Assembly: GCA_030065775.1 (NCBI GenBank)
Contig: JASJDL010000009.1
Location: forward strand, 1 to 32,047
Direction of reading: 5' to 3'
Length of the DNA: 32,047 bases
Origin: Flavobacteriaceae bacterium
GTDB lineage: Bacteria; Bacteroidota; Bacteroidia; Flavobacteriales; Flavobacteriaceae
A program made the translations under genes and the position numbers. Positions 11,554 through 32,038 of this stretch are shown piece after piece. The notes below the pieces were generated by a model. It did not search any database and had not been told where the DNA came from. It saw only the letters and a program-made list of their open reading frames with translations. How positions within the stretch are numbered: the stretch's first letter is position 1; each line of letters starts with the position of its first letter.

Positions 11554-13125
11554 ATGATACGAAGTATGTTTTTGCTGACGTTTTCGGGGTTGTTGCTATA
11601 TTCATGTACAGAAAAAAAAGAAATCAAGAAGCTTGATAAAGCGCTTGAAGTAAATGAAAGAATCAGTTATAATGAAAGTTACAGACCTCAGTATCATTTT
11701 TCTCCCACAGAGAAGTGGATGAATGATCCAAATGGACTGGTATATCACAAAGGTGTTTATCATTTGTTCTATCAACACTATCCGGAAGACATCGTATGGG
11801 GCCCCATGCACTGGGGGCATGCAATTAGTAACGACTTGATTTCATGGGGGCACAAACCTATTGCGCTATATCCTGATAAACATGGATTAATTTTTTCCGG
11901 TAGCGCTGTCGTTGATAAAAAGAACAGCTCTGGCTTTGGAAGCCTAGAAAATCCTCCCATGGTCGCAATCTTTACCTATCATTTAATGGAAGGTGAAAAA
12001 GCAGGCAGAACTGATTTCCAGACGCAAGGTATAGCTTACAGCTTAGATAATGGTAACACCTGGAAGAAATATGAAAACAACCCGGTTATCGGAAATCCCG
12101 GTATTAAAGACTTTAGAGATCCTAAGGTATTCTGGCATGAGGAATCTAATCAATGGATCATGGCCTTAGTAGCTGGAGATCATGTAAAGTTTTATAATTC
12201 AGAAAATCTAAAAGAGTGGAATTACCTAAGTGATTTCGGCAAAGGCAAAGGCGCCCATGGAGGTGTCTGGGAATGCCCCGACCTGTTTACATTAAAGTCT
12301 GAAAACAGTGATGACGAAAAGTGGGTGCTGCTAGTAAGTATTAACCCAGGAGCCCCCAATGGTGGTTCTGGAACACAATACTTTATTGGAGATTTTGACG
12401 GAAAGACATTCAGAGTTGAACATGATGACGTCAAGTGGTTAGATTATGGTATGGACAATTACGCAGGTATCACCTATAATAACGAACCCAATAATGATCG
12501 TGTCTTTATCGGGTGGATGAGTAATTGGAATTATGCCAGAAATACACCAACTGAGGTTTGGCGTAGTGCCATGACACTACCAAGAAAATTAACATTGACG
12601 AAAGAAGGGTCCGATTATTACGTTAAAGGTAATCCAATAGAGGCTATTGGGCAACTCATTGAAAAATCTGAAGATAACGAAATTATGAGGGTTGCCAACG
12701 AATCGAAATGGATTCTGGAGAAAGATTTTCTAAACGAATCTAAGATTTCATTTACCGCCGATTCGTTACACCATATTGAAATACAATTGACAAATAATAG
12801 CAATGATGCACTTCTTTTGGGAATCGATCCTGAAAAAAATGTAGCTTATATTGACAGAACAAAGTGTGGAAAAACCGGTTTCGAAAAAAGTTTTGCAGCA
12901 GCACGTCATGTGATGCCTCTAAAAATTAGGGACAGCGAAATTTCGATAGAAATTTATCTAGATAGATCGTCTGTCGAGTTTTTTATCAATAATGGTCGCT
13001 ATGTAATGACCAATCAGATTTTTCCAAATGAACCACTTACGTCTATTTCTGTTAGTGGCGATCAGAAACAAGGTATTCGCAATTTCAAGATAGAGCAAAT
13101 TAAATCGATTTGGAATGAAAAGTAA
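11554..13125 (+). CDS. Glycoside hydrolase family 32 lipoprotein (fructan/sucrose hydrolase)
   Basis: WMNDPNG, FRDPKVFW and WECPDLF GH32 motifs; likely start ATG 11554 (MIRSMFLLTFSGLLLYSC lipobox). Confidence 0.93.
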   Translation: MIRSMFLLTFSGLLLYSCTEKKEIKKLDKALEVNERISYNESYRPQYHFSPTEKWMNDPNGLVYHKGVYHLFYQHYPEDIVWGPMHWGHAISNDLISWGHKPIALYPDKHGLIFSGSAVVDKKNSSGFGSLENPPMVAIFTYHLMEGEKAGRTDFQTQGIAYSLDNGNTWKKYENNPVIGNPGIKDFRDPKVFWHEESNQWIMALVAGDHVKFYNSENLKEWNYLSDFGKGKGAHGGVWECPDLFTLKSENSDDEKWVLLVSINPGAPNGGSGTQYFIGDFDGKTFRVEHDDVKWLDYGMDNYAGITYNNEPNNDRVFIGWMSNWNYARNTPTEVWRSAMTLPRKLTLTKEGSDYYVKGNPIEAIGQLIEKSEDNEIMRVANESKWILEKDFLNESKISFTADSLHHIEIQLTNNSNDALLLGIDPEKNVAYIDRTKCGKTGFEKSFAAARHVMPLKIRDSEISIEIYLDRSSVEFFINNGRYVMTNQIFPNEPLTSISVSGDQKQGIRNFKIEQIKSIWNEK

Positions 13126-14461
13126 AACACTTTATTGGTCAATCACGGTTGCCTTGGCAGGATTTTTATTCGGTTTTGATACCGTGGTGATTTCGGGCGC
13201 CAATCAACCCATAAAAGAATTATGGAATACCTCGCCTTTATTTCATGGTACCTTTATTATGTCTATGGCACTTTGGGGAACGGTGTTCGGCGCACTTTTC
13301 GGAGGGCTCCCTTGTGATAGATTCGGAAGAAAAAAAACATTGATTTGGATCGGTATCCTGTACCTGCTATCGGCATTAGGTTCAGCCTTTGCTCCGGATC
13401 CATATACCTTTTCTTTCTTTCGATTTATTGGCGGACTGGGTGTTGGGGCCTCTTCAGTAGCTGCCCCAATTTATATCTCAGAAATCTCATCTGCTGAAAA
13501 GCGGGGAAGATTAGTAGCGCTATACCAATTTAATATCGTCTTCGGAATTTTTATAGCCTTCATTTCTAATTATTTATTAAAAGGTGTTGGAGGTAGCAAT
13601 GATTGGCGATTGATGTTAGGTGTGGAAGCCATTCCTGCCCTTGCCTATTCCTTGATGGTATTGACCGTTCCCAACAGTCCGAGGTGGCTGGCACTCAAAA
13701 AAAGAAATGATGAGGACGCAAAACAGGTATTAAACTTAATATATACGAAACAAAAAGCGCTTGAAAAACTGGCCGAAATAAAAGAAGATTTAGTCAATAA
13801 TCTTAAAGGTGAACGCCTGTTTCAGAAAAAATTTAGCCGTGTGATTTGGTTGGGATTCCTAATCGCATTTTTCAACCAGCTTTCGGGTATCAATTTTGTA
13901 CTGTACTATGCCCCTGAAATTTTAGAGCGATCAGGCCTGGCAGCAAAAGAATCTTTGTTCAGTTCAATTTCCATTGGCGTTGTGAACTTAGTTTTCACCT
14001 TCGTAGGTTTATGGCTGATTGACCGATTAGGAAGAAAACAACTCATTATTATTGGGTCAATTGGATATATTATTAGCCTCGCCATGGTAGGCTGGTCTTT
14101 CTACAGTGGCGCCAGTTCTGGTTTATTACTGTCCTTTATTTTGCTTTTCATAGCGTCTCATGCGATAGGGCAAGGCGCAGTTATTTGGGTTTTTATCTCT
14201 GAAATTTTCCCAAACAACGTAAGAGCTTATGGACAGTCTTTAGGTACCGGAACCCATTGGGTTTTTGCGGCAATAATCACATTAATCACACCTTTATTTC
14301 TAGATAATGATAAAGGAATATTTGCTGAAAATCCTTGGCCAATATTTGTGTTTTTTTCATTTATGATGATACTTCAGTTAATCTGGGCTTTAACCAAGAT
14401 GCCAGAGACAAAAGGCATTTCATTAGAAAAATTAGAAAAACAATTAGTTAAAAATGAATGA
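13115..14461 (+). CDS. MFS transporter, sugar porter family
   Basis: DRFGRKKT, IDRLGRKQ and PETKGISLEKLE signatures; 12 TM pattern; start overlaps GH32 stop by 11 nt. Confidence 0.92.
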   Translation: MKSKTLYWSITVALAGFLFGFDTVVISGANQPIKELWNTSPLFHGTFIMSMALWGTVFGALFGGLPCDRFGRKKTLIWIGILYLLSALGSAFAPDPYTFSFFRFIGGLGVGASSVAAPIYISEISSAEKRGRLVALYQFNIVFGIFIAFISNYLLKGVGGSNDWRLMLGVEAIPALAYSLMVLTVPNSPRWLALKKRNDEDAKQVLNLIYTKQKALEKLAEIKEDLVNNLKGERLFQKKFSRVIWLGFLIAFFNQLSGINFVLYYAPEILERSGLAAKESLFSSISIGVVNLVFTFVGLWLIDRLGRKQLIIIGSIGYIISLAMVGWSFYSGASSGLLLSFILLFIASHAIGQGAVIWVFISEIFPNNVRAYGQSLGTGTHWVFAAIITLITPLFLDNDKGIFAENPWPIFVFFSFMMILQLIWALTKMPETKGISLEKLEKQLVKNE

Positions 14462-15353
14462 TAATCAATCGCTTACCGCCGTATGCTATGGTGAAGTATT
14501 GTGGGATGTTTTTCCTGATCACAAAACCATTGGTGGCGCTCCTTTAAACGTAGCTTTACGTCTAAAATCACTTGGTATAGATACCGCTGTTATCACAAGA
14601 ATTGGTACTGATTCGAATGGTAAAGCGTTAACCGACTATCTTTCAGCCAATGGATTAGATTTATTTAATGTGCAAATTGATAACGAGCATAAAACCGGGA
14701 TCGTGAACGTTGCTTTAAACAATAGCGGTTCTGCCAGCTATGAAATTGAATATCCGGTAGCCTGGGATAAAATTCAATTGACAGAAAGGGCTGTAGAATT
14801 AGTAAAAACATCAGATACTTTTGTTTTTGGAAGTTTGGCTTGTCGTGATAAAATTTCAAAAAATACGCTACTTGAATTACTAGAGTTCGCAAAATTTAAG
14901 GTTTTTGATGTGAATCTTCGCCCACCACATTACTCCTATGAGCTATTATTAGAACTCATGCACAAGGCAGATTTTATAAAGTTAAACGATGAAGAACTAC
15001 TGGAAATCTGCAACCATATGGGTATTTCGGCATCTAACTTAAAAAATAGGATGCAACTTTTGTCGAAGAGAACAAATTCGCGCATTATTTGTTTGACAAA
15101 AGGCAAAAATGGTGCAGCATTATTGGTTGATGGTAGTTATTACGAAAATCAGGGTTATAAGGTTACTGTTGAAGATACCGTTGGAGCAGGTGATTCATTT
15201 TTAGCAACCCTAATTGCAAAACTACTGCAGAAATCGACTCCGGAAATTGCCTTAAATCATGCTTGTGTGGTTGGAGCTCTTGTGGCATCTAAAAAAGGTG
15301 CAAATCCAAAAATTAGCTTGACGGATATTGAGCGAGCAATGTCAAAACAGTGA
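14454..15353 (+). CDS. PfkB family carbohydrate kinase (fructokinase)
   Basis: GEVLWDVFPDHKTIGGAPLNVALRLKSLG and DTVGAGDSFLATLIAKLL PfkB signatures; overlaps MFS by 8 nt; GH32/MFS context suggests fructose. Confidence 0.9.
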   Translation: MNDNQSLTAVCYGEVLWDVFPDHKTIGGAPLNVALRLKSLGIDTAVITRIGTDSNGKALTDYLSANGLDLFNVQIDNEHKTGIVNVALNNSGSASYEIEYPVAWDKIQLTERAVELVKTSDTFVFGSLACRDKISKNTLLELLEFAKFKVFDVNLRPPHYSYELLLELMHKADFIKLNDEELLEICNHMGISASNLKNRMQLLSKRTNSRIICLTKGKNGAALLVDGSYYENQGYKVTVEDTVGAGDSFLATLIAKLLQKSTPEIALNHACVVGALVASKKGANPKISLTDIERAMSKQ

Positions 15354-15373: not shown

Positions 15374-15389
15374 ACGAAAACCTTTTCGT
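15374..15389. promoter_or_regulatory. Candidate operator 1: ACGAAAA-CC-TTTTCGT
   Basis: 7-bp perfect inverted arms around a 2-bp centre, upstream of susC. Confidence 0.6.
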
Positions 15390-15404: not shown

Positions 15405-15420
15405 ACGAAATCGATTTCGT
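15405..15420. promoter_or_regulatory. Candidate operator 2: ACGAAATCGATTTCGT
   Basis: Perfect 16-bp palindrome, same outer arms as operator 1, 31 bp centre to centre. Confidence 0.65.
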
Positions 15421-15597: not shown

Positions 15598-18594
15598 ATG
15601 AAAGTTAAATTACGCATGCATTTGCTGGCATTATTATGTTTTGCATTATGCTCCAGTGCACTTATTGCACAACAAACCGTAACCGGTACGGTTACAGGTG
15701 AAGACGGACCACTACCCGGTGTAAGCGTCGTTATTAAAGGAACATCTCAGGGTACTGAGACAGATTTTGATGGGCTTTACACCCTCAATAATGTTCCATC
15801 AGACGCTACGTTGGTGTTTAGCTTTATCGGTTACAGAACTACCGAAATAGCAGTTGATGGTAGGTCTCAAATTGATGTGACTCTGGAAGTGGATGCCCAG
15901 GCCTTAGACGAAGTAGTCGTCGTAGGTTACGGTTCTACTACCCGTAAGGAGGTAACAACGGCTGTTACGTCTGTGAGTACGGAAGACTTCAACCAGGGTG
16001 TAATTCAGGAACCTACGCAATTACTGCAAGGTAAGGTAGCCGGTTTGACCATCTACAATAAAGGTGGGGACCCGAATACAGCGGCCACAGTCCGTTTAAG
16101 AGGTCTTTCAACTGTCGGAGGTAACACAGAGCCATTAGTTGTCATTGATGGTGTTCTTGGTCAATCGTTGAGTAATGTTGACCCGGCAGATATTGAAAAC
16201 ATTACCGTTTTAAAGGATGGTTCTGCGGCTGCAATTTATGGTACTCGAGGTTCGAGTGGTGTAATCCTGGTAACTACAAAATCGGGTAAAAGCGGACAAC
16301 CATTCACTGTAAATTATAATGGACAATTCTCTACGGCTTCGATTGCAAATGAAATTGATATTATGAATAGAGATGAGTTTTTGGCCGTTGGAGGTACTGA
16401 CTTAGGAAGTGACACAGACTGGAGAGATGAGGTGACGCGTACCGCCTTTACGCAAGTGCACAATATTGCTGCTATTGGTGGTAGTGATGATGCCAACTAT
16501 CGAGTTTCACTAAATTACAGGGATACAGAAGGTATTTTAGAAAATTCAGGGTTTGAGCAGGTCAACGTGAGAGCGAAATTATCTGGTAAAATTTTAAACG
16601 ATAAATTAAAAATCGATTTTAATTCTGCTTTGACACAACGTGATAGTGACTTTGGATTCAATGAAGCCCTACGTTATGCTGTGTTGTACAACCCAACTGC
16701 CCCAATCTTCGGAGCTGATGCACCTTTCGCATTTAATTCAGATCAATTCGGTGGTTATTTTGAAACGTTAGGTTTATTTGACAGTTTTAACCCTGTTTCA
16801 ATCGCAGAGCAAAATAGAAATACGGGGGCGAGAAGCATTCTAAATTACAGTGTTGATTTAAGATACAACTTCTCGGATGAGTTGTCTGCCCAATTGAGCA
16901 TAGGTCAGCAAAATGAAAAAAATAGAAACAGAGAATACTATCCTACTACTGCCTTCTTTAGAGGAAATGCCTTAAGTCCGTTTAGAAAAGGTTTGGCGCG
17001 ATTCTTTAGCAACGAAATTGAGAATACAACATTAGAATTATTCGGAACCTGGAATAAAACGTTCAGTGATACATTCACACTAAAACTAACCGGTGGTTAT
17101 TCTTGGCAGGAGACAGATTACAATGAGTACTTCTTATCATTAGGTGACTTCCCTCCTGGTGTTAACTTTAACTTTGATGACGCCATCGAAGTCTCACAGG
17201 ATTTGTTAGAAGCAGGACGTGTTCAGGCGAATAGCGGAAGAAATGATGATGACAGAATTATAGCATTCTTTGCGCGTGCTAACGCAACCATAGACGATGC
17301 TATCTATTTGAATGCTTCGGTGAGACGTGAAGGGTCTACAAGATTTGGTTCTGAAAATCAGTGGGGTGTATTCCCTGCCTTCGCAGTGGGTGCCGACTTA
17401 AATAAGTATTTGGAATTAGACAATGTAAACCTGCTTAAGGTAAGACTAGGTTATGGGGTTACTGGTGCAATTCCACCTCAGCAAGGTCTTGCTCAAACAA
17501 CCTTCAATGTGAGTAACGGTTCGAACGGATTCGGATCAGCGTCCACAGGTTTAGGAAGTAGGGCTCCGAATCCCGATTTACAGTGGGAAGAAAAAAGAGA
17601 ATTGAACCTAGGGTTTGAATTTGCTACAGACCGCTTCTCCGCGACACTAGATTTATATAATAGAGACATCGTTGATTTCATTCAATTGGTGAACGTAGAC
17701 GCCGCAGTATTTGGTTTTTCAACACAATGGCAAAATGCGGGTGAGTTAAATACCCAGGGTATAGAGCTGACAGCAAATTATGATCTAGTCAAAAATGATA
17801 AAGTCACCTATAATACAGGTATTGTATTTAACACTTATACCACAAAACTAGAAAAGAATGTTGGTGGTGATAGAACAACAGGTAATTTAGGAGCTCCAGG
17901 CCAGAATGATACGAACGTAATTCTTGTAAGAGAAGGGCAAGAAGTCGGTCAGATTTGGGGACCGGTATTCACAGGTGAGGTTGATGGAGACGGAACTCCA
18001 ATTTTGGCAGACCTCAACGGAGATGGCGTCTTGGTCACTGATCAAGGTAGTGCCTTAGCCGATGATGCTGACTTTGCTGTATTAGGTAAAGGTTTCCCAG
18101 ATTTTGAAATTGGATGGACGAATCAGGTTACTATAGGTAATTGGGATATCAATGCCTTCTTTAGAGGTGCGTTTGGACATAGTTTAGTAAACGCGTTCCG
18201 TGCGTTTTATGAGCCCAGAATTGGATCGCAGTCATCGTATAACTTTATAAATACTGATTTGGCGAGAGATGATATAAGAACAGCGCAATTTAGTTCCTAC
18301 TATGTTGAGAAAGCTGACTTCTTTAGACTAGATAACTTGTCTGTGGGATATAATTTTGATATTAACAATAGTTATATCAAGAACATTAGAGTATCTCTTG
18401 CAGGTCAAAATGTATTTACGATTACAGATTATACCGGTGCAGATCCTGAGCCAGCTTTACAAGATTTTGGTTCGCTCGATAATGCAGGATTTCTCGATAG
18501 AACAAATCCGGATGTGTTAGCACCAGGTATTGACAGACGTTACAACTACTTTGCGTCTCGTACGTTTACGCTTGGTGTAAATATTAACTTTTAA
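15598..18594 (+). CDS. SusC/RagA family TonB-linked outer membrane protein
   Basis: CarboxypepD-like plug GTVTGEDGPLPGVSVVIKGTSQGTETDFDGLYTL, TonB box-like DEVVVVGYGS, LKDGSAAAIYGTRGSSGVILVTTKSG, C-terminal beta-barrel ending INF. Confidence 0.97.
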   Translation: MKVKLRMHLLALLCFALCSSALIAQQTVTGTVTGEDGPLPGVSVVIKGTSQGTETDFDGLYTLNNVPSDATLVFSFIGYRTTEIAVDGRSQIDVTLEVDAQALDEVVVVGYGSTTRKEVTTAVTSVSTEDFNQGVIQEPTQLLQGKVAGLTIYNKGGDPNTAATVRLRGLSTVGGNTEPLVVIDGVLGQSLSNVDPADIENITVLKDGSAAAIYGTRGSSGVILVTTKSGKSGQPFTVNYNGQFSTASIANEIDIMNRDEFLAVGGTDLGSDTDWRDEVTRTAFTQVHNIAAIGGSDDANYRVSLNYRDTEGILENSGFEQVNVRAKLSGKILNDKLKIDFNSALTQRDSDFGFNEALRYAVLYNPTAPIFGADAPFAFNSDQFGGYFETLGLFDSFNPVSIAEQNRNTGARSILNYSVDLRYNFSDELSAQLSIGQQNEKNRNREYYPTTAFFRGNALSPFRKGLARFFSNEIENTTLELFGTWNKTFSDTFTLKLTGGYSWQETDYNEYFLSLGDFPPGVNFNFDDAIEVSQDLLEAGRVQANSGRNDDDRIIAFFARANATIDDAIYLNASVRREGSTRFGSENQWGVFPAFAVGADLNKYLELDNVNLLKVRLGYGVTGAIPPQQGLAQTTFNVSNGSNGFGSASTGLGSRAPNPDLQWEEKRELNLGFEFATDRFSATLDLYNRDIVDFIQLVNVDAAVFGFSTQWQNAGELNTQGIELTANYDLVKNDKVTYNTGIVFNTYTTKLEKNVGGDRTTGNLGAPGQNDTNVILVREGQEVGQIWGPVFTGEVDGDGTPILADLNGDGVLVTDQGSALADDADFAVLGKGFPDFEIGWTNQVTIGNWDINAFFRGAFGHSLVNAFRAFYEPRIGSQSSYNFINTDLARDDIRTAQFSSYYVEKADFFRLDNLSVGYNFDINNSYIKNIRVSLAGQNVFTITDYTGADPEPALQDFGSLDNAGFLDRTNPDVLAPGIDRRYNYFASRTFTLGVNINF

Positions 18595-18611
18595 TTAAAA
18601 ACTTTATAACA

Positions 18612-20231
18612 ATGAAAAGTTTGATAAAATTGACATTCTTATTCAGTATACTATTCTTAGCATATTCATGTACTGATCTAGATGAGGTGTTAGAAGATGA
18701 ATTAACGACGGAGTTCTCCGATCCGGGTGTTGCGGTAATTGAGGGAGCTACTTCTGGAGGAGTTTTTCCACCAGCGGCACTGGTACCATCGTATAATCGA
18801 TTGAGAAACGGTTCTGCAAATCACGGTAGCTATTATTCGGTGCAAACAGTTGCTTCGGATGAGCATGCTATCGGCCAGAAAGGTGGTGACTGGTTTGATG
18901 GAGGTGTTTGGTTACGAATTCATAGGCATACCTATGAATCAGCCAATGGACAAATTAATAATATATGGACCGACGCCTATGGAGGTATCAGCGAAGTAAA
19001 TTTAGCCATTGCAAGCGGTGCATTATCGGCTGCTGAACTTGCGCAGGCGAAAGTGATTCGTGCTTTCTTCTATTGGAGGCTGTTAGATAATTTTGGAAGA
19101 GTGAAATTAGTGACAGAATCGGCCGCTGACCCACCTCAATCGAGTAGAGTTGATGTTTTCAACTTTGTTGAGAGTGAATTACTAGATGCGATTGGAATCG
19201 GCGCTGTTACTGGGAGTATGGATTTATCAGCAAGCCCATTGGGTACTGCGGCGCAGCCGTATATCGTGAACCAATATGGTGCCTTGTCATTTCTAGCGAA
19301 ATTATACTTAAACGCAGAGGTATATACAGGTGTTGCCCGATTCCAGGAAGCTGACTGGGCAGCGAGTTACGTAATAGATAATGGTCCCTACATGTTGAGT
19401 GACGCGAGTATTTCAGTTCCTAACTTGGCGAAAAGGCCAGACGTTGCTTCTGACCCTGATGAGTTAACTGGTTATGCTGCCGCATTTGCTCCGAATAATC
19501 AATTCAACCCTGAAATGATCTGGTCGATTTATTATGATGAGACTTTTCCAAATGATCAACCTCAGATGAACTTTGTACAAATGCACTTGCACTATAGTTC
19601 TCAGTTGACCTATGCTTTAGATGAGCAACCATGGAATGGATATCAGGTATTAGAGGAATTCTACAATAGTTACGAAAACGGTGATGCCAGAAAAACAGCG
19701 AACTTCTTGGTTGGACCGCAATCTGATTTTGGAGGATCGGCTTTATTAGATTTCGCCTCTGATGATCCTGACCTGGTAGTTGATTATACACCAGCTATTA
19801 ATGAATTAGAGCCAAACTCAATTCGTCAAAGCGGTGTTAGACAAAATAAATTCAGTTACCAATTGTTTAGTAGAAGAAGTATGAACAATGATTACCCATT
19901 ATTCAGATTAGGTTATGTTCATTTAATTCGAGCTGAAGCAAGAGCAAGAGAGGCCGGAGACTGGAGTCTGGCTGAACCCGATGTAACTGCTATTAGAGCA
20001 AGAGCAGGATTAGGCGCATTGCCTTCTATTACAGCTGACAGCTTCTTTGATGAATTAGGTAGAGAAATGTTCTTGGAATCTGACCGTAGAACAAGTTTGG
20101 TTCGTTTTGGTAAATATGGTGATGCATGGTGGGAGAAAGCTGCTAGTGCAGACTTTAGAACTGTATTCCCAATTCCTCAGAATCAGATTGATGCTTCCGG
20201 AGGTACTTTAACACAAAACCCAGGATACTAA
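18612..20231 (+). CDS. RagB/SusD family nutrient uptake outer membrane lipoprotein
   Basis: Lipobox (FLAYSC) then acidic TDLDEVLEDE; directly after susC; C-terminal VTAIRARAGLGALPSITADSFFDELGREMFLESDRRTSLVRFGKYGDAWW and FPIPQNQIDASGGTLTQNPGY. Confidence 0.95.
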   Translation: MKSLIKLTFLFSILFLAYSCTDLDEVLEDELTTEFSDPGVAVIEGATSGGVFPPAALVPSYNRLRNGSANHGSYYSVQTVASDEHAIGQKGGDWFDGGVWLRIHRHTYESANGQINNIWTDAYGGISEVNLAIASGALSAAELAQAKVIRAFFYWRLLDNFGRVKLVTESAADPPQSSRVDVFNFVESELLDAIGIGAVTGSMDLSASPLGTAAQPYIVNQYGALSFLAKLYLNAEVYTGVARFQEADWAASYVIDNGPYMLSDASISVPNLAKRPDVASDPDELTGYAAAFAPNNQFNPEMIWSIYYDETFPNDQPQMNFVQMHLHYSSQLTYALDEQPWNGYQVLEEFYNSYENGDARKTANFLVGPQSDFGGSALLDFASDDPDLVVDYTPAINELEPNSIRQSGVRQNKFSYQLFSRRSMNNDYPLFRLGYVHLIRAEARAREAGDWSLAEPDVTAIRARAGLGALPSITADSFFDELGREMFLESDRRTSLVRFGKYGDAWWEKAASADFRTVFPIPQNQIDASGGTLTQNPGY

Positions 20232-20254
20232 ACGAAAGTTTTTTCTATATTTGA

Positions 20255-20286
20255 GGGTTGCTCTACATGAGCAACCCTTTTTTTTT
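20255..20286 (+). terminator. Strong intrinsic terminator after susD
   Basis: GGGTTGCTC tacat GAGCAACCC + T9; 9-bp perfect stem, 5-nt loop. Confidence 0.88.
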
Positions 20287-20287
20287 G

Positions 20288-23200
20288 ATGATGTGCCGAT
20301 TTATAAGTTTATTCATTGTTCTTTTATCAATTTCATGCACTACTAATGAAAATACAGAACAGACCTTGTTTGTACTGAAAGATGCATCAACCGGGATTGA
20401 TTTTAACAATTCATTGACCTATACCGAACGCTTTAACCCATATACCTACAGAAATTTTTACAACGGCGGTGGGGTCGCTATTGGTGACATTAATAATGAT
20501 GGACTCGAAGATATTTTTTTTACCGGAAATCTTGTCGATAATAAATTATATATAAACAAAGGAGATTGGCAATTTGAGGATATTACTAAAACTGCAGGAG
20601 TTTCTTGTCCGAATGTATGGTCGACTGGAGCCACATTCGCAGATGTTAATGGCGATGGTTTTCTCGATATATACGTGTGTAAGTCTGGCCCTCCGGGGGG
20701 AACGAATCGTCATAACGAGCTATTTATAAATAATGGTGACCTTACCTTTACAGAAGCCTCAAAAGAATACGGCTTAGCCATTGAAGGCCTATCAGTTCAC
20801 GCTGCATTCTTCGACTATGACAAGGATGGTGATCTAGACGTCTACATCTTAAATAATTCTATTAAATCTATAGGAAATTTCGACTTGGTAAAAGATCAGC
20901 GCACAATTCCTGATGAAACCGGCAGCGGAAATAAATTCTTAAGAAATGACAATGGTAAATTCATCGATATCACTCAAGATGCTGGTGTATATTCAAGTAA
21001 GATCGGATTCGGACTAGGAATTACACTTGGCGACTTCAATAATGACCACTGGATAGATATTTTTATCTCCAATGATTTTTTTGAAAAAGATTATTTATAT
21101 ATCAATAATAAAAAAGGAGGGTTCACCGAAGAATTAGAAAATCGTTTTGAATCTATCTCCATGGGTGCTATGGGCGCTGATTTTGCCGATCTGGATAACG
21201 ATTTGAATAATGATCTTTTTGTTACAGAAATGCTGCCCAGATCTTTAGAACGGCAAAAAGTGAAAATAGTTTTTGAGTCTTGGGATAAGCAGCAGGTTGC
21301 CAAACGACAAGGCTATTTTAATCAATATTCACGAAATACCCTACAAAGGAATTTAGGAGACGGTTCATTCGTTGAGCTAGGAAGACAGGCCAACGTCTCC
21401 GCTACTGAATGGAGCTGGAGTGCTTTATTATTTGATATGAATAATGATGGAACAAGAGATATTTTCGTCAGTAATGGAATCTATAAGGACTTGTTAGATA
21501 GAGACTACCTAACATATGAAGCAAATGAAGAGACCATACGTAATAGAATAAATAGTGATGAAAAAGAGGTGATCAAAAAGTTAATTGATGCGATGCCCTC
21601 TAAAGCAGTATCAAATGCGGTATATCAAAATAAAGGGAGCTTTGAATTTGAAGAAAAAGCTCTGGAATGGGGCTTGGCCACACCAAGTTTTAGCAATGGA
21701 AGTGCTTATGGTGATCTCGATAATGACGGAGATCTGGATCTGGTCGTTAACAACGTGAACATGCCTTCTTTTATCTATCAAAATAAAACCGATACGCTCT
21801 CGAATAGAAGTATCACTATACAATTAGCCCAGAAAAATAGTAATCCTAGTGCAATTGGTGCAAAAGTTGTGATTTACTATGATGGCCATAAAAAAATATA
21901 TGGTGAAAATTTCACTTCAAAAGGTTTTCAAAGTAGTACACCTTCAAAAATTCACTTTGGGGTTGGTGAAGCGTCTAAAATAGATTCACTCTGGGTTCAA
22001 TGGCCTGATGGCAATTCTTCCTTTCATAGCAATTTAGCAACAAATAGACTGCATACCCTATACTACCCTTCTATCAAAAGCAAAAATGATTTTTTGAATT
22101 CCGGAAAAGACAATCACCAGCTCCAGAAAATAGAAACCATTGCAAATCACACACATGTTGAAAATAAATATATCGATTTTAACAATGAGCGTTTATTACC
22201 TCAAATGTATAGCAACGAAGGGCCCGCATTAGCCTGTGAAGATCTCAATCATGATGGAGTTACGGATTTTTTTATTGGCGGTGCCAAAAATCAGACGGCA
22301 AATCTATTCTTGTCTTCACCACAAGGATATACTAAAATAGATGAGCCATTTCAGAAAGATATCGGCTCAGAAGACGTTGAAGCCACATTTTTTGATGCAG
22401 ATAATGACGGCGACCTCGATCTTTATGTTTGCCATGGAGGTAAAGCCTTTTCACCACACTCTGCTGATCTGCACGATAGTTATTACAGGAATGAAAATAA
22501 TTCTTTTATCAAATCTGAGATAAAATTCCCAAAACCGATCAGTTCGGCTGTAGCAGTAGCCTCAGATTATGACAATGATGGTGACCAAGATCTCTTTGTT
22601 GGCGAACGCTATAAGACGAATTTATATGGACAGCCAGGATCAGGATATTTGCTTCAAAATGACGGAGACGGAAATTTTGAAGTCATAGACATAGAAGCGT
22701 TCAAAAATATAGGCATGATAACCGATGCTGTATGGCTCGATATCAATAAAGATGGCTGGCAAGATCTTATTATTGCTGGAGAATGGATGCCTTTAAAGAT
22801 TTATATAAATGAGCAATCAGAATTTAAAGATAAAACCCTTGAATACGGACTGAAAAATTCATCAGGCCTATGGACCACGATAGCACTAAAAGACATTGAT
22901 AACGACGGAGATCAGGACATCATCGCAGGTAATATCGGATTGAACACATTTTTAGCACCCGAAATGCGAATGTACATCTCTGATTTTGACCAAAACGGAT
23001 TTAAAGAACAGCTAATTTGTAAAAAAATAAATGGCAAGTACTACCCTATTGTTGATAAAGATGAATTGATCTCACAAATTCCTCCCTTAAAGAAGAAGTT
23101 ATTATATTATAAAGACTATGCAAGAGCCGACATCAACGCGATTTTCGGTAAGGAGCGCATAGATAACACCTTTTATTTAGCTGTAAATATGTTGGAAAGT

Positions 23201-23551
23201 ACCATATTTTATAATGAAAATAATAAATTTGAGCCCAGAAAACTACCTTCGGAAGTTCAATATGCTCCCGTTTATGCAATTACATCATCAGATATAGATG
23301 GCGATGGGCAAATAGATTTAATTTTTGGAGGAAATCAATATTTAGTAAAACCGCAATTTGGAAAGTATGATGCTTCAAAAGGATGGTGGGTAAAAGGACC
23401 TTTTCATAAGGACATTTCTGAATATCAGGTGAACACATTAAATATCCGAGGCCAAATAAGGGAATTAAATTGGTTGACACATAACAACAGTAAGATACTA
23501 ATAGTCGCAAAAAATAATGACAAAACAGCATTTTATAAGTACAAGGATTAA
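20288..23551 (+). CDS. FG-GAP/VCBS repeat + ASPIC/UnbV domain lipoprotein (paralog 1)
   Basis: Likely start ATG 20288/20291 (MMCRFISLFIVLLSISC); the TTG at 20258 lies inside the terminator stem. Many DxNxDGxxD repeats; ASPIC/UnbV-like IGAKVVIYYDGHKKIYGENFTSKGFQSSTPSKIHFGVG. Confidence 0.93.
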   Translation: MMCRFISLFIVLLSISCTTNENTEQTLFVLKDASTGIDFNNSLTYTERFNPYTYRNFYNGGGVAIGDINNDGLEDIFFTGNLVDNKLYINKGDWQFEDITKTAGVSCPNVWSTGATFADVNGDGFLDIYVCKSGPPGGTNRHNELFINNGDLTFTEASKEYGLAIEGLSVHAAFFDYDKDGDLDVYILNNSIKSIGNFDLVKDQRTIPDETGSGNKFLRNDNGKFIDITQDAGVYSSKIGFGLGITLGDFNNDHWIDIFISNDFFEKDYLYINNKKGGFTEELENRFESISMGAMGADFADLDNDLNNDLFVTEMLPRSLERQKVKIVFESWDKQQVAKRQGYFNQYSRNTLQRNLGDGSFVELGRQANVSATEWSWSALLFDMNNDGTRDIFVSNGIYKDLLDRDYLTYEANEETIRNRINSDEKEVIKKLIDAMPSKAVSNAVYQNKGSFEFEEKALEWGLATPSFSNGSAYGDLDNDGDLDLVVNNVNMPSFIYQNKTDTLSNRSITIQLAQKNSNPSAIGAKVVIYYDGHKKIYGENFTSKGFQSSTPSKIHFGVGEASKIDSLWVQWPDGNSSFHSNLATNRLHTLYYPSIKSKNDFLNSGKDNHQLQKIETIANHTHVENKYIDFNNERLLPQMYSNEGPALACEDLNHDGVTDFFIGGAKNQTANLFLSSPQGYTKIDEPFQKDIGSEDVEATFFDADNDGDLDLYVCHGGKAFSPHSADLHDSYYRNENNSFIKSEIKFPKPISSAVAVASDYDNDGDQDLFVGERYKTNLYGQPGSGYLLQNDGDGNFEVIDIEAFKNIGMITDAVWLDINKDGWQDLIIAGEWMPLKIYINEQSEFKDKTLEYGLKNSSGLWTTIALKDIDNDGDQDIIAGNIGLNTFLAPEMRMYISDFDQNGFKEQLICKKINGKYYPIVDKDELISQIPPLKKKLLYYKDYARADINAIFGKERIDNTFYLAVNMLESTIFYNENNKFEPRKLPSEVQYAPVYAITSSDIDGDGQIDLIFGGNQYLVKPQFGKYDASKGWWVKGPFHKDISEYQVNTLNIRGQIRELNWLTHNNSKILIVAKNNDKTAFYKYKD

Positions 23552-24131
23552 TTTCAATTTGCTTATTACCTTTGTGCTGACTTTAACTATTATGAATAGT
23601 TGTAAAAAGTCCGCTTATACAGAATTGGTGAGAGCAGAGTTAGCTACAGAGGTCATCAATGATTCTCTCAAATTCGGATTAAAATTAGGAGTCCCTCGTC
23701 AACATTTTTATGACATCTGTTGGCAACTAAATAAAGAACAAAAAGTGAAGCAAGGGCCATTGAATAATTTCGTAGAATACAAGCTTCCAACAAAAAACAA
23801 AGACCGTGTGGAAGAACGAATAACGATGCTTTTCTACGGCATATTTGATGAGGAAAAAATTATGACCGGTCTCGATATGAAATTTTATTTTGATGCCTGG
23901 TCTCCATGGAATAAATCACTACATGCTGACAAGCTCATACCGGTTGTAAAAGACACCTTATTGTCGTGGTACCCTGGAAACAACTTCATTCCAATCACGC
24001 TAAAGAAAAGTGATAAAGAAGTTCTGATTAAAGTAGATGGAAATCGTCGCATACTCATAGAATCTCCCAAGGATAGTAGACAGCTAGATGTCAGAATCGA
24101 TGACCTAAGGTATGTTGAAGGCATTAATTAA
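23517..24131 (+). CDS. Small lipoprotein of unknown function
   Basis: Lipobox (TLTIMNSC); LKFGLKLGVPRQHFYDICWQLNKEQKVKQGPLNNFVEYKLP; overlaps upstream gene end by 35 nt, 12 nt before next ORF. Confidence 0.8.
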   Translation: MTKQHFISTRINFNLLITFVLTLTIMNSCKKSAYTELVRAELATEVINDSLKFGLKLGVPRQHFYDICWQLNKEQKVKQGPLNNFVEYKLPTKNKDRVEERITMLFYGIFDEEKIMTGLDMKFYFDAWSPWNKSLHADKLIPVVKDTLLSWYPGNNFIPITLKKSDKEVLIKVDGNRRILIESPKDSRQLDVRIDDLRYVEGIN

Positions 24132-24143
24132 TCGAATACACGT

Positions 24144-27100
24144 ATGACCTATACTAGACTGATAATTGCTCTTTTAATTGTAGTGAACTTTTCTTGTAAC
24201 AAAGCTCAAGACGAACCTTCTCCAGAAATGTTTAAACTGTTGGACACCTCGGAAACCGGGATCAATTTTCTCAATGAACTTAGTTATAGCGATCAATTCA
24301 ACGTATATAAGTATCGAAATTTTTACAATGGCGGAGGTGTGGCGATTGGTGATATAAATAATGACAGTCTACCCGATCTTTACTTTACAGCCAATCAATC
24401 AAAGAATAGGCTTTACTTAAACAAAGGGAACTTCAAGTTTGAAGATATAACAGACAACTCTAAAACAGCTGGAACCAAGCCCTGGTCTACCGGGGTCTCT
24501 ATGGTCGATATTAATGCCGATGGCTTACTGGACATTTATGTTTGCAATTCTGGTGATATTAATGGAGAGAATAAACAAAATGAACTGTTTATTAATAACG
24601 GTGACCTTACCTTTACTGAAGCAGCAGCAGCATATAATTTAGATGATAAGGGTTTTTCAACACATGCTTCTTTTTTTGACTTTGATAAAGATGGTGATCT
24701 CGATGTCTATATTTTAAATAATTCCTATCAAGCAATTGGCAGCTTTGACCTCAGAAGAAATGAACGGCCTAAAAGAGACCTTTTAGGTGGTGATAAATTA
24801 ATGGAAAATGTTGATGGCAAATTTATAGACATCAGTGAAAAAGCAGGTATCTACGGTAGCGTGGTAGGTTTTGGTCTGGGAGTAACTGTTGGTGATGTTA
24901 ATAATGACGGATGGGAAGATATTTACATCTCCAATGATTTTTTTGAACGAGATTACCTGTATATCAATAATCAGAACGGAACATTCTCAGAGCAACTTGA
25001 AAACCAAATTGCGGCCACAAGTGCGGCCTCGATGGGCGCTGATATGGCGGACATCAATAATGATGGTTATAATGATATTTTTGTAACTGATATGCTACCA
25101 TCTGAATATCAACGTCTTAAAACAGTTACAACATTTGAAGACTGGAACAAATATCAATTAAAGGTCACTAATGGCTACCACCATCAATTCACAAGAAATA
25201 CGCTTCAGTTGAACAACGGCAATAATTCCTTTAGCGAAATAAGTAGATTGAGCGGTGTTGCGGCTTCAGATTGGAGCTGGGGTGCCTTATTCTTTGATAT
25301 GGACAATGATGGTCTCAAAGACCTTTATATCGCTAATGGAATCTACAAAGACCTTACCGATCAAGATTACCTGCAATATATCTCTAATGAAGAAGTCATT
25401 AAATCAATCGTGGCGAATGATAAAGTTGACTACAAACGACTGATCGATATCATCCCATCAAGAAAAGTAAAGAACCATGCATATAAAAACCAGGGAAACT
25501 TACAGTTCGACGTATATGAGGAATCAGGACTATGGACTGAGAGCTTTTCAAATGGCGCCGCTTATGGTGATTTAGATAATGACGGTGACCTCGATCTGGT
25601 AGTTAACAATTTGAATATGGAATCATTTGTTTATGAAAATACTTCTGACCAAAGAAAAAATTCAAATTATATCAAATTAGTATTACAAGGTGAAGGTAAA
25701 AATACAGGCGCTATAGGTGCCAAAGTGGAGGTTCAAAATTCAAATATTAGTGTTGAAAATCAACCTGCAAGAGGTTTTCAGTCCAGCATGGATCCACGAA
25801 TAAATATTGGCATTCCAACGAATGATCCTGTAAATCTAAAAATCACATGGCCATCAGAAAAAGTATCTTTCCTGAATAATATTCAAGTGAATCAAACGAT
25901 CTACCTAAGTGAAAAAGACGCAAAACTTGTGCAACCTGAAGATCGAGATTATAAGACGCCTATCTTCAAGAAAAATTCCCTTAAAATAGATTACAAACAC
26001 CAGGAAAATATCTTTGTAGACTTCCATAGAGATCGTTTACTCAATCATATGTGTAGTACAGAAGGACCAAAACTTTCGATGGCAGATCTAAACAATGACG
26101 GGTTTGAAGAGCTCTTTATTGGAGGTTCTAAGGGAAACCCTGCTCAATTATTTCAAGGAAATGCCACCGGGTTTTCTGAAGTAAGCTCAAGTACTTTTAT
26201 CAAAAATAGCAATTCAGAAGATAGCTCCAGCCTCTTCTTTGATGCTGATGGCGATGGTGATTTAGACCTCTACGTTTGCAGTGGTGGTGTAGAATACTCG
26301 CAATTTGCGGTTGAATTTTTAGACCGGCTTTATATAAACAATGGTGCGGGTGACTTTACCCTCTCTGATCAAAAGCTACCTTCTTTGAATTCATACCATA
26401 GTACTTCAACTGTCACTGCTTCTGATATAGACAATGATGGTGATCTTGATTTATTTGTGGGAGAACGCATTGTCCCATTAAAATACGGGGTTCCAGGTTC
26501 AGGATTCATTTTAGAAAATAATGGTAAGGGTATTTTTACAAACGTTACAGATACCAAAGCCAAAGACCTGATTGATTTAGGAATGATTACCGATGCAACT
26601 TTTGAAGATATAGATAAAGATGGAGATGAAGACCTGATGATTATTGGTGAGTTCATGGGAATTGAGCTTTTTATAAATGATAAAGGCTCATTCAAAAAAC
26701 AAGTTGACAATCCCATTTCTAACTTAAAAGGATGGTGGAATACAATTCATAAATCAGATCTCGATAATGATGGTGATCTTGACTTTATACTAGGAAATCA
26801 TGGGTTGAACAGCAGATTTAAAGCCAGTAATGAAAAGCCTATAACCCTGTATTCGGGCGACTTCGACAACAATGGCTTCATTGACCCCATCCTGACATTC
26901 AGAGCAGTCAATAATAAAGATTATCCTTATGCATTACGGCATAATTTAATCGATCAGATCAAATCTTTAAAAAAGAAATTTCCTGATTATCAGTCGTTCA
27001 AAAATTCTGATATAACCCAAATGTTTGATGAAAAGCAACTTCAGAATAGTAAGGCCTTAGAGGCCAATACGCTTTCTTCAATAATTTTAATTAATAAAGG

Positions 27101-27422
27101 CAATCTGGATTTCGAGGTCAAAGAGCTTCCTTTAGAAGCACAGCTCTCCCCTGTCTATGCCATTGTTACCGATGATTTTGACGGTGATGGCGATCAGGAT
27201 ATAGTTCTTGGCGGAAATCTTTACAGCGTGAAACCCGAAGTCGGTAGATATGATGCCAGTCATGGGGTATATCTTGAAAACCTAGGACAATTCCGTTTTA
27301 AAAATCACAGAGGCGGTAATGGTTTTTCTATAACCGGCGAAGTAAGAGACATAATAATAGATGATAAAAAACTTATTATATCCAGAAACAGGGATTCACT
27401 GGCCATATTTAACTATAAATAG
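24144..27422 (+). CDS. FG-GAP/VCBS repeat + ASPIC/UnbV domain lipoprotein (paralog 2)
   Basis: Lipobox (VVNFSC); [26 protein letters not shown] etc.; ASPIC/UnbV-like [37 protein letters not shown]. Confidence 0.93.
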   Translation: [1092 protein letters not shown]

Positions 27423-27423
27423 C

Positions 27424-30400
27424 ATGCGTAATAGTTATACGTTCTTAGTTGCAGCGGTTGTCATATGTATCTTCTCATGTTCGAAAAAAACCTCCGGACC
27501 TCCGGTTGAAAAGGCTGCAATTTATTTTGAATCACTCCCTGCCGACAGCACCGGCATCCACTTTTCAAATGACCTGTTTTTTAAAGATGATTTGAACATA
27601 ATAGAATTTCTGTATTACTATAATGGCGGCGGTGTCGCCGTAGGGGATATCAATAATGATGGCTTAGACGACATTTACTTCACTTCAAACATGACTAGCG
27701 ATAAGCTGTATTTGAATCTCGGTAATTTTAAGTTCAAAGATATTACTCAAGTCGCAGGTATTTCAACCGATTCAACATGGTCTACAGGTGTCACTATGGA
27801 AGATATCAATAATGATGGATTACTTGATATTTATGTTTCGAAAGTTGGTAATTATAAAGACCTACAAACCAACAATAGGCTCTATATTAATAATGGTGAT
27901 CGAACATTTTCTGAACAAGCATCATCTTATGGCTTAGATTTTTCAGGATTCTCGACGCAGGCCTCTTTTTTTGACTATGATAATGATGGCGATATGGATA
28001 TGTACCTCTTGAATCATGCGGTGCACACCCCAAGAAGTTATGGTGATATTAGAATGCGAAAGGTGAAAGACAGCCTTTCAGGCGATCGACTTTATGAAAA
28101 TAAATTGAATGAAGGTCTGTCGAAATTTCAAGACGTCACCGAATCTGCCGGAATCTATTCCAGCGCTTTAGGTTATGGACTCGCATTAATTACTTCAGAT
28201 GTCAATAAAGATGGATTCATTGATATTTATGTAGGTAATGATTTTCATGAGAATGACTACTTATACATCAATCAGGGAAACGGGTCTTTTCAGGAAGCTA
28301 TCTCCGAATATATAGATCATACGACACGTTTTACTATGGGTATCGATATTTCAGACATTAACAATGATTCAAGACCAGATATTTTTACACTCGATATGAT
28401 GCCTTATGATAAAGAAATATTGCTAAAGTCTAGTGGCGAAGACTCCGATAAGGTAAGTCAGATCAAAAAGAATTTTGGTTTTGAAATGCAATATGCAAGA
28501 AATACCTTGCAAATTCAACGTGAGGATAATTCGTTTGCCGAGTTGGCGCTTATGACAGATACCTATGCTACCGACTGGAGTTGGTCTACACTGATTCAGG
28601 ATTTTGATAATGATGGATTCAAAGATATTTATGTTACAAATGGTATTTACAAAAGACCTAATGATTTAAACTATATCAATTTCCTGAGTAATACAAACTT
28701 CGCCAAATATGATCAAACGAAGCAAAATGAGCTCGAAAAAAAATTGATTGACGAAATGCCTACCATAAATTTGCCGAATAATATTTTTAAGAATAATGGA
28801 AATCTGGGCTTTGAAAGATTGACTGAGAACGCCGGTCAAATCCCGTCCTACTCCAACGGTGCTGCATACAGTGATTTTGATAATGACGGTGATATCGATT
28901 TGGTGGTTAACAATATTAATCAAAAAGCTTTTATTCTAAAAAATGAAAGTGAAAATGTTCAGCAGAATAGTCATGTAGCCCTGGACCTCAAAGGCAATTC
29001 GTTGCTTAAAAATACAAACGGATCAAAAGTTTACCTATATGCCGGTGATCAAGAATATTACCAGGAACTTACGAGTACAAAAGGATACCAATCGAGTTCA
29101 ACACATAAGGTACATATGGGTCTGGGAACTACTTCACAAATTGACTCGGTAAAAATAGTTTGGTTGGATGGTACAGAACAAATTGAGAAACAAGTAAAGA
29201 TCAACCAATTAAATGCGATAGAAAAAAGCTCTGATGCAAGACCAACCTATAGAACAGCTTTCAAAACAGAGAACGAAGCAGAAAGATTTCCCTTTGTACA
29301 TATAGAAAATAATTATATCGATTATGAAAATGAACCGCTGGTTCCTGAAAAACTCTCCACAGAAGGACCTTGTGCTGTATCGGCTGATTTTAATAAAGAT
29401 GGTTTACAGGATTTATTTATTGGAAATGCCAGGTACCAGACACCTGTTCTTTATTTGAAACAACCTAATGGAGACTTCAAAAAACACGTTCAAGATGTTT
29501 TTATCAAAGATGCAATTTATGAAGATGTAGACGTCGAGGTATTTGATATTGAAAATGACGGCGACCTTGACTTATATGTAATGAGTGGTGGTGGTGATAA
29601 GGTAGAAAACGATGCCTATTTAGAAGACCGAATATATATCAATGATGGTCAAGCGAACTTTACAAGGCTAATGAAGCCCTTAATAAAAACCAATGGTGGC
29701 AGTGTTAGCGCTGGAGATTTTGATGGCGACGGCTTTGACGATCTTTTTATCGCCAATCGATCGATTCCCGGGGGCTATGGATTATCACCCTACAGCTACA
29801 TACTTAAAAATAACCAAAACGGTACATTCATTATGGTAAATAAAGTGCCTTTAGGTATGATAACAGATAGCCAATGGATTGATATTAATGGTGATCAACT
29901 ACTTGATTTAGTTGTGGTTGGCGATTGGATGCCTGTCACAGTACTAGTCAATAAAGGTGATCTTAAATTCGAAAATGCCACTAAAGAACTTGGTCTGGAA
30001 AAATCTTCGGGTATGTGGAATGCGGTTGTGGTGCATGATATTGACGCTGATGGAAGACCAGATATCATCGCCGGAAACGCAGGCCTCAATTTGAAATGGA
30101 AAGCATCAAAAGAAAGACCAATAAAACTCTATTTGGACGATTTTGATAATAACCAACAAGTTGACCCCATCATATTCCATGATTTTTATGGTGCGTATGT
30201 TCCCTTTGCTTCTAGAGATCATCTCGTAAGCCAAATGCCTTCACTGAAGAAGAAGTTTTTAAGTTACACCGAATTTGCTAAAATCAAAACTATAGAAGAT
30301 TTGGTGGGCAGTAGTGAAGAAAATATCTTAGAAGTGAAAGAAATCAATGAATTACGTTCTATGGTATATTTAAATACCAATGCCGGGTTTAAAGAACAAC

Positions 30401-30693
30401 CTTTGCCGTTTGAAGCACAACGAAGCTCCATCGAAGATATCGCTATCCATGAAAATGAAAATCAAGAAAGTAAACTCATTTACGTTGGGAACTTTAGAGG
30501 ATATATTAATGAATTAGGACAGAATACCGCAAATTCAGGTGGGGTCTTAACCATAAATAACGGTGCGATTCATCAGGTTATAGACTTGAATGTACCTTCC
30601 AATCTGAACACCAGAAAAATAGTTAAATTAGATAAAAATAGATACCTGGTTCTTGCCAATAACGATAAATCTTATATTTTTGAAACTAATTAA
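27424..30693 (+). CDS. FG-GAP/VCBS repeat + ASPIC/UnbV domain lipoprotein (paralog 3)
   Basis: Likely start ATG 27424 ([19 protein letters not shown]), 1 nt after the upstream stop; [25 protein letters not shown]; ASPIC/UnbV-like [36 protein letters not shown]. Confidence 0.93.
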   Translation: [1089 protein letters not shown]

Positions 30694-30712
30694 TAATCAG
30701 AAAGAACGTATT

Positions 30713-32038
30713 ATGAAGTCAAGAGTTTTATTAGTTGCGTCACTACTTATTTTACTCATAGGGTGTAAAAAAAATGAAGAGTATAAAGCTACGTTAAGTG
30801 ATCCCGAATTGTTTCATTCGGCTGTTAAGAAATTAACAGATGTCATTGTCTACGATATTTTCTCTCCACCGGTGGCGTCACGTGTTTATATGTATCCAAG
30901 TGTGGCGGCATATTCAGTGATGCAACAAGGCAATGCAGACGCGTACCATAGTTTATTTGGTCAACTCAAAGGCTTGGAAGCTATACCCAAGCCTGACTCT
31001 GAAGTCATTAATTTTAATCTTGCGGCGTTTTATGCGCACACTGTCGTAGGAAAACAATTGATTTTTTCGGAAGATAGGATTACGGCTTTTCAGGATGAAA
31101 CCGTTGAAAAATTGAAAGAGCAAGGGGTGCCGAAAGATGTATTAGACGCCTCCTTAGATTATGGCAATAAAGTAGCCCAGCACATCTTAAAATGGTCTAA
31201 AACCGACTTATACGACCAGACCAGAACTTATCCAAAGTATACTATAAAGCAAGAAGATAAATTTTGGAAGCCCACACCTCCAGATTATATGGATGGTATC
31301 GAACCACATTGGAACCAGATTCGTACCGTGGTATTGGATTCTGCAAATCAGTTCCCGCCAATTCCACCCGTTAAGTTTGACTTAACCGAAGGCAGTGAGT
31401 TTCAAAAGCAGTTAATGGAAGTCTACGAAGAAGGGCGTGGTAAAGATGCTGAAAGTAAGGAAATTGCCAGTTTCTGGGATTGTAACCCTTACGTTTCGCA
31501 TCATAAAGGGCATGCTATGTTCGCCACAAAAAAAATTACTCCTGGTGGGCATTGGATAGGTATTACGGCCATATCTACCAGACAGGCAAAGAGTGATTAT
31601 GCAGAAACAATAAACGCCTATGCCAATGTATCGATTGCACTTTTCGATGCTTTTATAAGCTGTTGGGATGAAAAATGGCGAAGCCTTGTAGTGCGACCGG
31701 AAACTTTGATAAATCAGCATATGGACGAAGAATGGGTACCTCTATTACAAACCCCTCCTTTTCCTGAATATACCAGTGGCCATTCGGTGATTTCCCGAGC
31801 TGCTGCCGTGACTCTCACTAATTTGTACGGTGATAATTTTCATTTTAACGATACCACCGAGCTTGAATATGGCTTACCCATGCGTAGTTTTAAATCATTT
31901 ATTCATGCCTCTGAAGAAGCTGCAATTTCAAGGTTATATGGTGGAATCCATTATAGAATGGCAATTGATGAGGGTGTAACACAAGGCCATAAAGTTGGAG
32001 ATTTTATCGTCGCAAATCTTCAGACAAAAAAGGAATAA
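30713..32038 (+). CDS. PAP2-superfamily / vanadium-dependent haloperoxidase-like lipoprotein
   Basis: Likely start ATG 30713 (lipobox LLIGC); KWRSLVVRP = KX6RP, EYTSGHS = SGH, SRLYGGIHY = RX5H: the complete PAP2/haloperoxidase signature. Confidence 0.9.
   Translation: MKSRVLLVASLLILLIGCKKNEEYKATLSDPELFHSAVKKLTDVIVYDIFSPPVASRVYMYPSVAAYSVMQQGNADAYHSLFGQLKGLEAIPKPDSEVINFNLAAFYAHTVVGKQLIFSEDRITAFQDETVEKLKEQGVPKDVLDASLDYGNKVAQHILKWSKTDLYDQTRTYPKYTIKQEDKFWKPTPPDYMDGIEPHWNQIRTVVLDSANQFPPIPPVKFDLTEGSEFQKQLMEVYEEGRGKDAESKEIASFWDCNPYVSHHKGHAMFATKKITPGGHWIGITAISTRQAKSDYAETINAYANVSIALFDAFISCWDEKWRSLVVRPETLINQHMDEEWVPLLQTPPFPEYTSGHSVISRAAAVTLTNLYGDNFHFNDTTELEYGLPMRSFKSFIHASEEAAISRLYGGIHYRMAIDEGVTQGHKVGDFIVANLQTKKE

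Follow-up and report, generated by a model that had tools for sequence, protein, structure and literature searches.

A SusC-SusD locus carrying ASPIC/VCBS lipoproteins and a vanadium-haloperoxidase-type enzyme in Flavobacteriaceae

Accessory lipoproteins dock on SusC-SusD (SusCD) in the levan and dextran utilisomes of Bacteroides thetaiotaomicron (B. theta), which include a surface glycan-binding protein and a glycoside hydrolase (PMC7618045), and in the BtuB-BtuG vitamin B12 transporter a beta-propeller surface lipoprotein caps a TonB-dependent transporter (PMC10404256). Here we describe a seven-gene block that can be compared with both, found on the + strand at 15598-32038 of a 32,047-nucleotide stretch (the window) from a Flavobacteriaceae bacterium. 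The order of the block is SusC, SusD, VCBS1, an orphan lipoprotein (LP), VCBS2, VCBS3, and haloperoxidase. The window is the entire contig C18 of a draft genome (2.84 Mb, 205 contigs, 80% complete), and the contig stops at 32047. Like the utilisomes, the block places SusC, SusD, accessory lipoproteins, and a lipoprotein enzyme in one locus; unlike them, it has as accessory proteins three paralogous ASPIC proteins predicted to be double propellers and carries a haloperoxidase in place of a hydrolase, and the association described here is one of gene linkage. The pairing of a beta-propeller surface lipoprotein with a TonB-dependent transporter is shared with BtuB-BtuG, but BtuG is a single seven-bladed propeller acting as a lid, whereas the window has SusD and its propellers are extra.

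Two further systems bear on the enzyme. It shares full-length homology, 53% identity, and the KX6RP, SGH, and SRX5H motifs with zgVIPO1 of Zobellia galactanivorans (PDB 4cit/4usz). The nearest physiological parallel is Arenibacter sp. C-21, a marine flavobacterium whose iodine uptake depends on glucose, oxygen, and calcium, with glucose dispensable if peroxide is supplied, and which carries five or more homologs of the Zobellia enzyme (PMC5064120). The Zobellia-type homologs and the glucose and calcium dependence make the likeness; any link from this uptake to the window locus is conjectural. In Zobellia, the vanadium iodoperoxidase gene vIPO3 is upregulated on Ascophyllum relative to alginate or maltose (PMC9296495).

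The genes of the block are as follows.

15598..18594, + strand: susC, TonB-linked outer-membrane transporter (TIGR04056 636 bits, above cut-off; TIGR04057 signature)
18612..20231, + strand: susD, outer-membrane lid lipoprotein (PF07980 above cut-off, PF14322; lipobox, then C-TDLDE acidic motif)
20288..23551, + strand: VCBS1, FG-GAP and ASPIC lipoprotein (Pfam; tree clade "first before LP")
23517..24131, + strand: LP, 204-aa orphan lipoprotein between the VCBS1 and VCBS2 genes (Pfam, nothing above cut-off)
24144..27422, + strand: VCBS2, architecture as VCBS1 (Pfam; tree clade "after LP"; AlphaFold2 model)
27424..30693, + strand: VCBS3, architecture as VCBS1 (Pfam; clade of haloperoxidase-adjacent copies)
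30713..32038, + strand: vanadium-haloperoxidase-type lipoprotein of the zgVIPO1 group (phmmer 2e-155 to 4cit; KX6RP, SGH, SRX5H motifs)

With susC and susD adjoining in that order across a 17-nt gap, and both profile scores above cut-off, the locus has the form of a SusCD nutrient-uptake locus. An earlier note made from this sequence had named the same seven genes on a single strand, with gaps of -35, +12, +1, and +19 nt from 20288 on, and all of this is confirmed.

The block is genuine rather than an accidental arrangement of genes. The order GH32-MFS-PfkB-SusC-SusD-VCBS1-LP-VCBS2-VCBS3-haloperoxidase, followed by another MFS gene, is identical in three same-genus genomes (GH, glycoside hydrolase; MFS, major facilitator superfamily). 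We also surveyed neighbourhoods within 20 kb of the haloperoxidase in 60 loci sampled from the listed family matches, which were taken down the score list with hits on long contigs favoured. SusC and SusD were both present in 43 of these loci (on the enzyme's strand in 41), and VCBS genes in 53, with at least three copies in 40 and a copy immediately before the enzyme in 41. The expectation by chance, computed from SusD and ASPIC gene numbers in 25 of the sampled genomes, is about 7% for SusCD (6.6% by SusD density) and about 3% for VCBS. Most VCBS-bearing loci (42/53) also hold SusCD, and intergenic gaps are often overlaps or a few bases. A scan of named genomes using a single protein gave 6 loci only. 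The enzyme itself is present in 177 of 400 sampled genomes of the family (~44%) and 56 of 395 sampled genomes of the class.

To ask which link is primary, we picked 20 strong ASPIC genes from outside the known haloperoxidase loci. SusC lay upstream on the same strand in 19 of them, in most cases separated from the ASPIC gene by SusD or a gene of SusD size, and a further haloperoxidase was found in two, with none nearby in the other 18. Because ASPIC genes outside haloperoxidase loci follow SusC this consistently, SusC-SusD-VCBS is the general module and the haloperoxidase a frequent addition to it. The association of VCBS proteins with SusCD proposed from the window sequence thus holds genomically, both in these independent loci and in the haloperoxidase loci. 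The family did not show the contrary pattern named beforehand, in which most blocks of VCBS and haloperoxidase genes would lack susCD. At two loci (L087, L089), an unusual insertion of Planctomycete cytochrome C/DUF1549/DUF1553, DUF1501, and NHL/6-bladed propeller genes separates VCBS3 from the haloperoxidase.

Each of the three VCBS proteins has a lipobox, 7-8 scored FG-GAP_3 stretches, and one UnbV_ASPIC domain, the last scoring 55-66 bits for PF07593 against a cut-off of 23.4, which places all three in the UnbV/ASPIC (CRTAC1-like) family. An AlphaFold2 model of VCBS2 (pLDDT 90.7, pTM 0.91) has CRTAC1 (9etn) as its closest fold in PDB, at TM 0.69 on CRTAC1. From this match and the Pfam positions, the architecture is predicted to be a propeller, the ASPIC domain, and a second propeller. 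CRTAC1 and the UnbV/ASPIC family, the top sequence and fold match, share the FG-GAP propeller and ASPIC domain, but in the window proteins ASPIC would be followed by another propeller, and they also have a lipid anchor and lie in a SusCD locus. There are 9-13 DxDxDG calcium-type loops in each protein, and the earlier suggestion of calcium-binding propellers agrees with the predicted fold and these loops.

In a tree of 201 VCBS proteins, grouping follows operon position and not genome. The copy before LP falls into one clade in 22 of 22 cases (support 0.97), as does the copy after LP (22/22, support 0.99). The haloperoxidase-adjacent copies form a weaker grouping, since the clade of 64 that holds 49 of the 54 has a support of just 0.65. 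On the same tree, the label "next to haloperoxidase" requires 13 changes, compared with a mean of 48 when shuffled. The three VCBS copies are therefore, on phylogenetic evidence, position-specific paralogs. A fourth ASPIC/VCBS gene of the window's genome (L045, contig C153, 6522-9770) also falls in the haloperoxidase-adjacent clade; it has neither SusCD nor haloperoxidase alongside and adjoins a dehydrogenase E1/transketolase-type gene.

Every part of the block except LP is a member of a known family. LP matched no Pfam family above cut-off, and its AlphaFold2 model (pLDDT 89) had no fold match in PDB at E<=0.001. Among 24 aligned members of the LP family, the invariant residues include Cys68 and a K-x-D-G-x-R motif. 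No LP was found when plasmids were searched for it.

The window haloperoxidase is a protein of the PAP2/vanadium haloperoxidase (VHPO) type whose match to the Zobellia structures is full-length (2e-155, phmmer). Its catalytic motifs are KWRSLVVRP at 341, SGH at 375, and SRLYGGIH at 426, and all three are intact in 94 of 96 collected relatives. Full-length homology together with these vanadate-pocket motifs places the enzyme in the zgVIPO1 group, and family membership suggests that it may oxidise iodide. The nearest surveyed relative of zgVIPO1 (L101, 87% identical) is itself within a SusC-SusD-SSS-VCBS x3-haloperoxidase locus; no paper tying zgVIPO1 to a SusCD locus was found in the literature searched. 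The window's genome encodes a second haloperoxidase-like protein (L046, contig C125, 3989-7677; VCPO_2nd and DUF6851 domains, 27% identical), two genes ahead of an eCIS_core gene and with an AAA ATPase nearby, which puts it within a contractile-injection-type cluster. At L099 (18029-18931) and 29 other loci, the haloperoxidase is followed by a 300-aa protein whose C-terminal domain is GyrI-like and whose N-terminal part has a hydrophobic stretch; this protein is found downstream of the enzyme in about half of the sampled family loci and is absent there in the window's closest relatives.

Three candidate regulatory elements flank the susCD pair.

15374..15389, strand not assigned: LacI-type operator-like site 1, ACGAAAACCTTTTCGT, one mismatch; 31 bp from site 2
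15405..15420, strand not assigned: LacI-type operator-like site 2, perfect palindrome ACGAAATCGATTTCGT, CG-centred
20253..20279, + strand: terminator-like hairpin and T tract, probable attenuator (11 pairs, -20 kcal/mol, z -5.6)

The two CG-centred palindromes lie upstream of susC, and the pair recurs with its 31-bp spacing upstream of susC in three same-genus relatives (L029, L031, L033). With up to one mismatch, the operator pattern occurs at three places in the whole genome, the third lying shortly before a lacI-family gene on contig C129. A reversed-pattern control gives one place fewer per strand (2 vs 3), so the count alone is weak and the evidence lies in placement and conserved spacing. 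A similar palindrome was found upstream of susC in 24 of 46 cases in haloperoxidase loci versus 1 of 17 in loci without haloperoxidase (shuffled expectation, 1.6 of 63). LacI-family genes are present in 23 of the 60 haloperoxidase loci.

A hairpin comparable to the one between susD and VCBS1 occurs 3' of susD at 39 of 61 SusD-VCBS junctions versus 2 of 204 internal junctions, a contrast exaggerated because the control junctions are mostly coding. Given its position after susD, susCD and the downstream genes are probably expressed in two tiers, and the predicted structure fits high susCD expression and lower expression downstream. The single transcript proposed in the earlier note is not contradicted from 20288 on, 3' of the hairpin, but it does not extend to susCD. 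The note's overall interpretation is thus supported in part, namely in the genomic link between VCBS proteins and SusCD, in the predicted propeller fold, and in the halogenating option for the enzyme.

Genes for sugar use surround the block. GH32, sugar porter, and PfkB kinase genes lie upstream of susC in the same direction, and a divergent GH65 gene scores as a kojibiose hydrolase.

9433..11535, - strand: GH65 kojibiose hydrolase, divergent (NF053734 1118 bits vs cut-off 800)
11506..13125, + strand: GH32 of the beta-fructosidase/sucrase type, order kept in relatives (PF00251/PF08244)
13115..14461, + strand: sugar porter MFS (TIGR00879 348 bits)
14454..15353, + strand: PfkB-family sugar kinase, fructokinase-like (PF00294)

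The only carbohydrate-active enzymes near the window SusCD are GH32 and GH65, both resembling small-sugar enzymes; a GH13 is encoded on C129. Families recurring in the sampled loci include a vSGLT-like symporter, xylulokinase (XylB), xylose isomerase (XylA), a sucrose-type symporter, GH32, GH65, GH97, a GH100-type enzyme, and LacI. Such neighbours suggest small sugars that vary between genomes; GH32, XylA/XylB, vSGLT, and the fructokinase-like kinase suit mono- and disaccharides better than the breakdown of polysaccharides. Further from the block, a separate envelope-stress-type cluster occupies 4328-9207 on the minus strand (DUF4870, a PadR regulator, PspC with toast-rack, DUF4440, and head-GIN, DUF2807).

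Contig C129 opens with genes matching (54-94% identical) the MFS gene and its neighbours located after the haloperoxidase in relatives, and is thus probably the next piece of the chromosome beyond 32047. By this synteny, the window's genome too would have a sugar MFS gene after the haloperoxidase. Genes at 1-14884 of C129 (L188) encode the sugar MFS, a NUDIX protein, a sugar-isomerase-like TIM barrel, and a GMC oxidoreductase with Gluconate_2-dh3; further genes are a 3-keto-disaccharide hydrolase, a GFO/IDH/MocA oxidoreductase, the GH13, and an apparently self-regulated lacI gene. As the 565-aa GMC gene comes with Gluconate_2-dh3 and the 3-keto-disaccharide hydrolase, a role as a sugar 3-dehydrogenase is likelier for its product than peroxide production. 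At another locus (L041), the 567-aa gene preceding a VCBS-haloperoxidase pair was considered as a glucose oxidase but proved to encode a gamma-glutamyltranspeptidase.

Taken together, we propose a LacI-controlled SusCD importer of small sugars with accessory VCBS lipoproteins and an anchored haloperoxidase that processes peroxide and iodide, a reading on which our confidence is evenly balanced. An inducing sugar, in this locus probably a disaccharide resembling sucrose or kojibiose, would cause a LacI-type repressor to leave both operators, giving strong susCD expression, and the hairpin after susD would pass part of transcription on to the VCBS-LP-VCBS-VCBS-haloperoxidase genes. SusC and SusD would form a TonB-driven importer. 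The three VCBS proteins, as lipid-anchored double beta-propellers with ASPIC between, may serve in accessory capture and docking around SusCD, each in its own place; both roles are drawn by analogy from SusCD biology and TonB-transporter precedents (PMC7618045, PMC10404256). Anchored beside them, the haloperoxidase would use hydrogen peroxide to oxidise iodide, so that peroxide encountered on algal exudate would be destroyed at the cell surface and yield reactive iodine harmful to competitors. We regard a stronger version as doubtful, namely that the haloperoxidase belongs structurally to a surface complex with SusCD and the VCBS proteins in which sugar import is coupled to iodide oxidation, and that the locus type is the genetic basis of sugar-, calcium-, and peroxide-dependent iodine uptake in marine Flavobacteriaceae.

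Several observations weigh against the main proposal. SusCD is missing within 20 kb in 17 of the 60 haloperoxidase loci, and other families of the class often have the haloperoxidase alone, with some full blocks there (L149, L151). All block lipoproteins have a lipobox, and acidic residues after the cysteine, a hint of surface export, are found in 49 of 49 SusD proteins but are moderately enriched in VCBS (54%) and haloperoxidase (41%) relative to background (22%). The hairpin comparison given above is not fully fair, and the candidates considered on C129 and at L041 gave no firm link between the locus and an oxidase producing hydrogen peroxide.

As a less likely alternative, the haloperoxidase may be a functionally independent passenger on a working SusCD-VCBS sugar-uptake unit, placed there only because sugar-rich growth coincides with oxidative stress, with no physical or mechanistic link to that unit. 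The loci lacking SusCD favour this explanation, as do the 18 of 20 SusC-SusD-VCBS loci without a nearby haloperoxidase and the sugar genes that can separate the enzyme from the VCBS block (L104, L119, L127). It is opposed by the short or overlapping gaps and by the VCBS copies themselves, since those next to the enzyme mostly belong to one clade, and at L041 and L043 a VCBS protein of that clade is retained with the haloperoxidase even without SusCD.

We judge it improbable that the enzyme oxidises iodide for the SusCD-VCBS proteins to import the iodinated product or hypoiodite. Arenibacter C-21, with its iodine uptake and multiple homologs of the Zobellia enzyme (PMC5064120), provides a precedent. 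However, the linked SSS gene is ruled out as an iodide symporter (vSGLT 785 bits vs iodide cotransporter 83 bits), the enzyme is missing from most of the SusCD-VCBS loci sampled, and the neighbours are sugar genes.

Very unlikely, in our view, is a PAP2-fold phosphatase without vanadate, in a locus that takes up phosphorylated organics and removes their phosphate, as the Pus systems of Flavobacterium do. The PAP2 superfamily match allows for it, and phosphatase-linked SusCD systems exist in that genus (PMC8115612). On the other hand, the enzyme matches a solved vanadium iodoperoxidase over its full length, and sugar genes and LacI make up the neighbours identified. Neither the window nor the recurrent families of the sampled loci yielded an identifiable phosphatase, phosphodiesterase, or Pho gene, and the terminal gene is of the VHPO type. 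The earlier note had left the choice between a redox/halogenating enzyme and a phosphatase, and homology and motifs favour the former, specifically the vanadium iodoperoxidase group, over an unspecified phosphatase. Least probable of all is that the VCBS proteins are adhesins or matrix proteins in a block for algal attachment with the enzyme making halogenated surface chemistry, as FG-GAP/integrin-like propellers are commonly taken as adhesion domains (PMC2668756) but the VCBS genes hold a strict position behind SusC-SusD in nearly all sampled loci and the operators are of the sugar type.

Searches of the open literature for SusCD with ASPIC/VCBS proteins or haloperoxidase returned nothing relevant, with subscription papers outside their scope and absence no proof. 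Neither the recurring combination nor its siting under probable sugar control turned up in the open papers searched. Annotation of VCBS/ASPIC proteins usually stops at their repeats, and bacterial iodoperoxidases have, to our knowledge, been studied as isolated enzymes. Through one widespread type of SusCD locus, the VCBS propellers gain a probable partner, and the iodoperoxidase gains a probable regulator and physiological setting. The co-location of importer, propellers, and enzyme in one block suggests that sugar feeding and reactive-iodine production are linked, and the question of why marine Flavobacteriaceae oxidise iodide becomes testable in culturable strains. With the enzyme present in nearly half of the sampled genomes of the family, the answer could matter for marine iodine chemistry.

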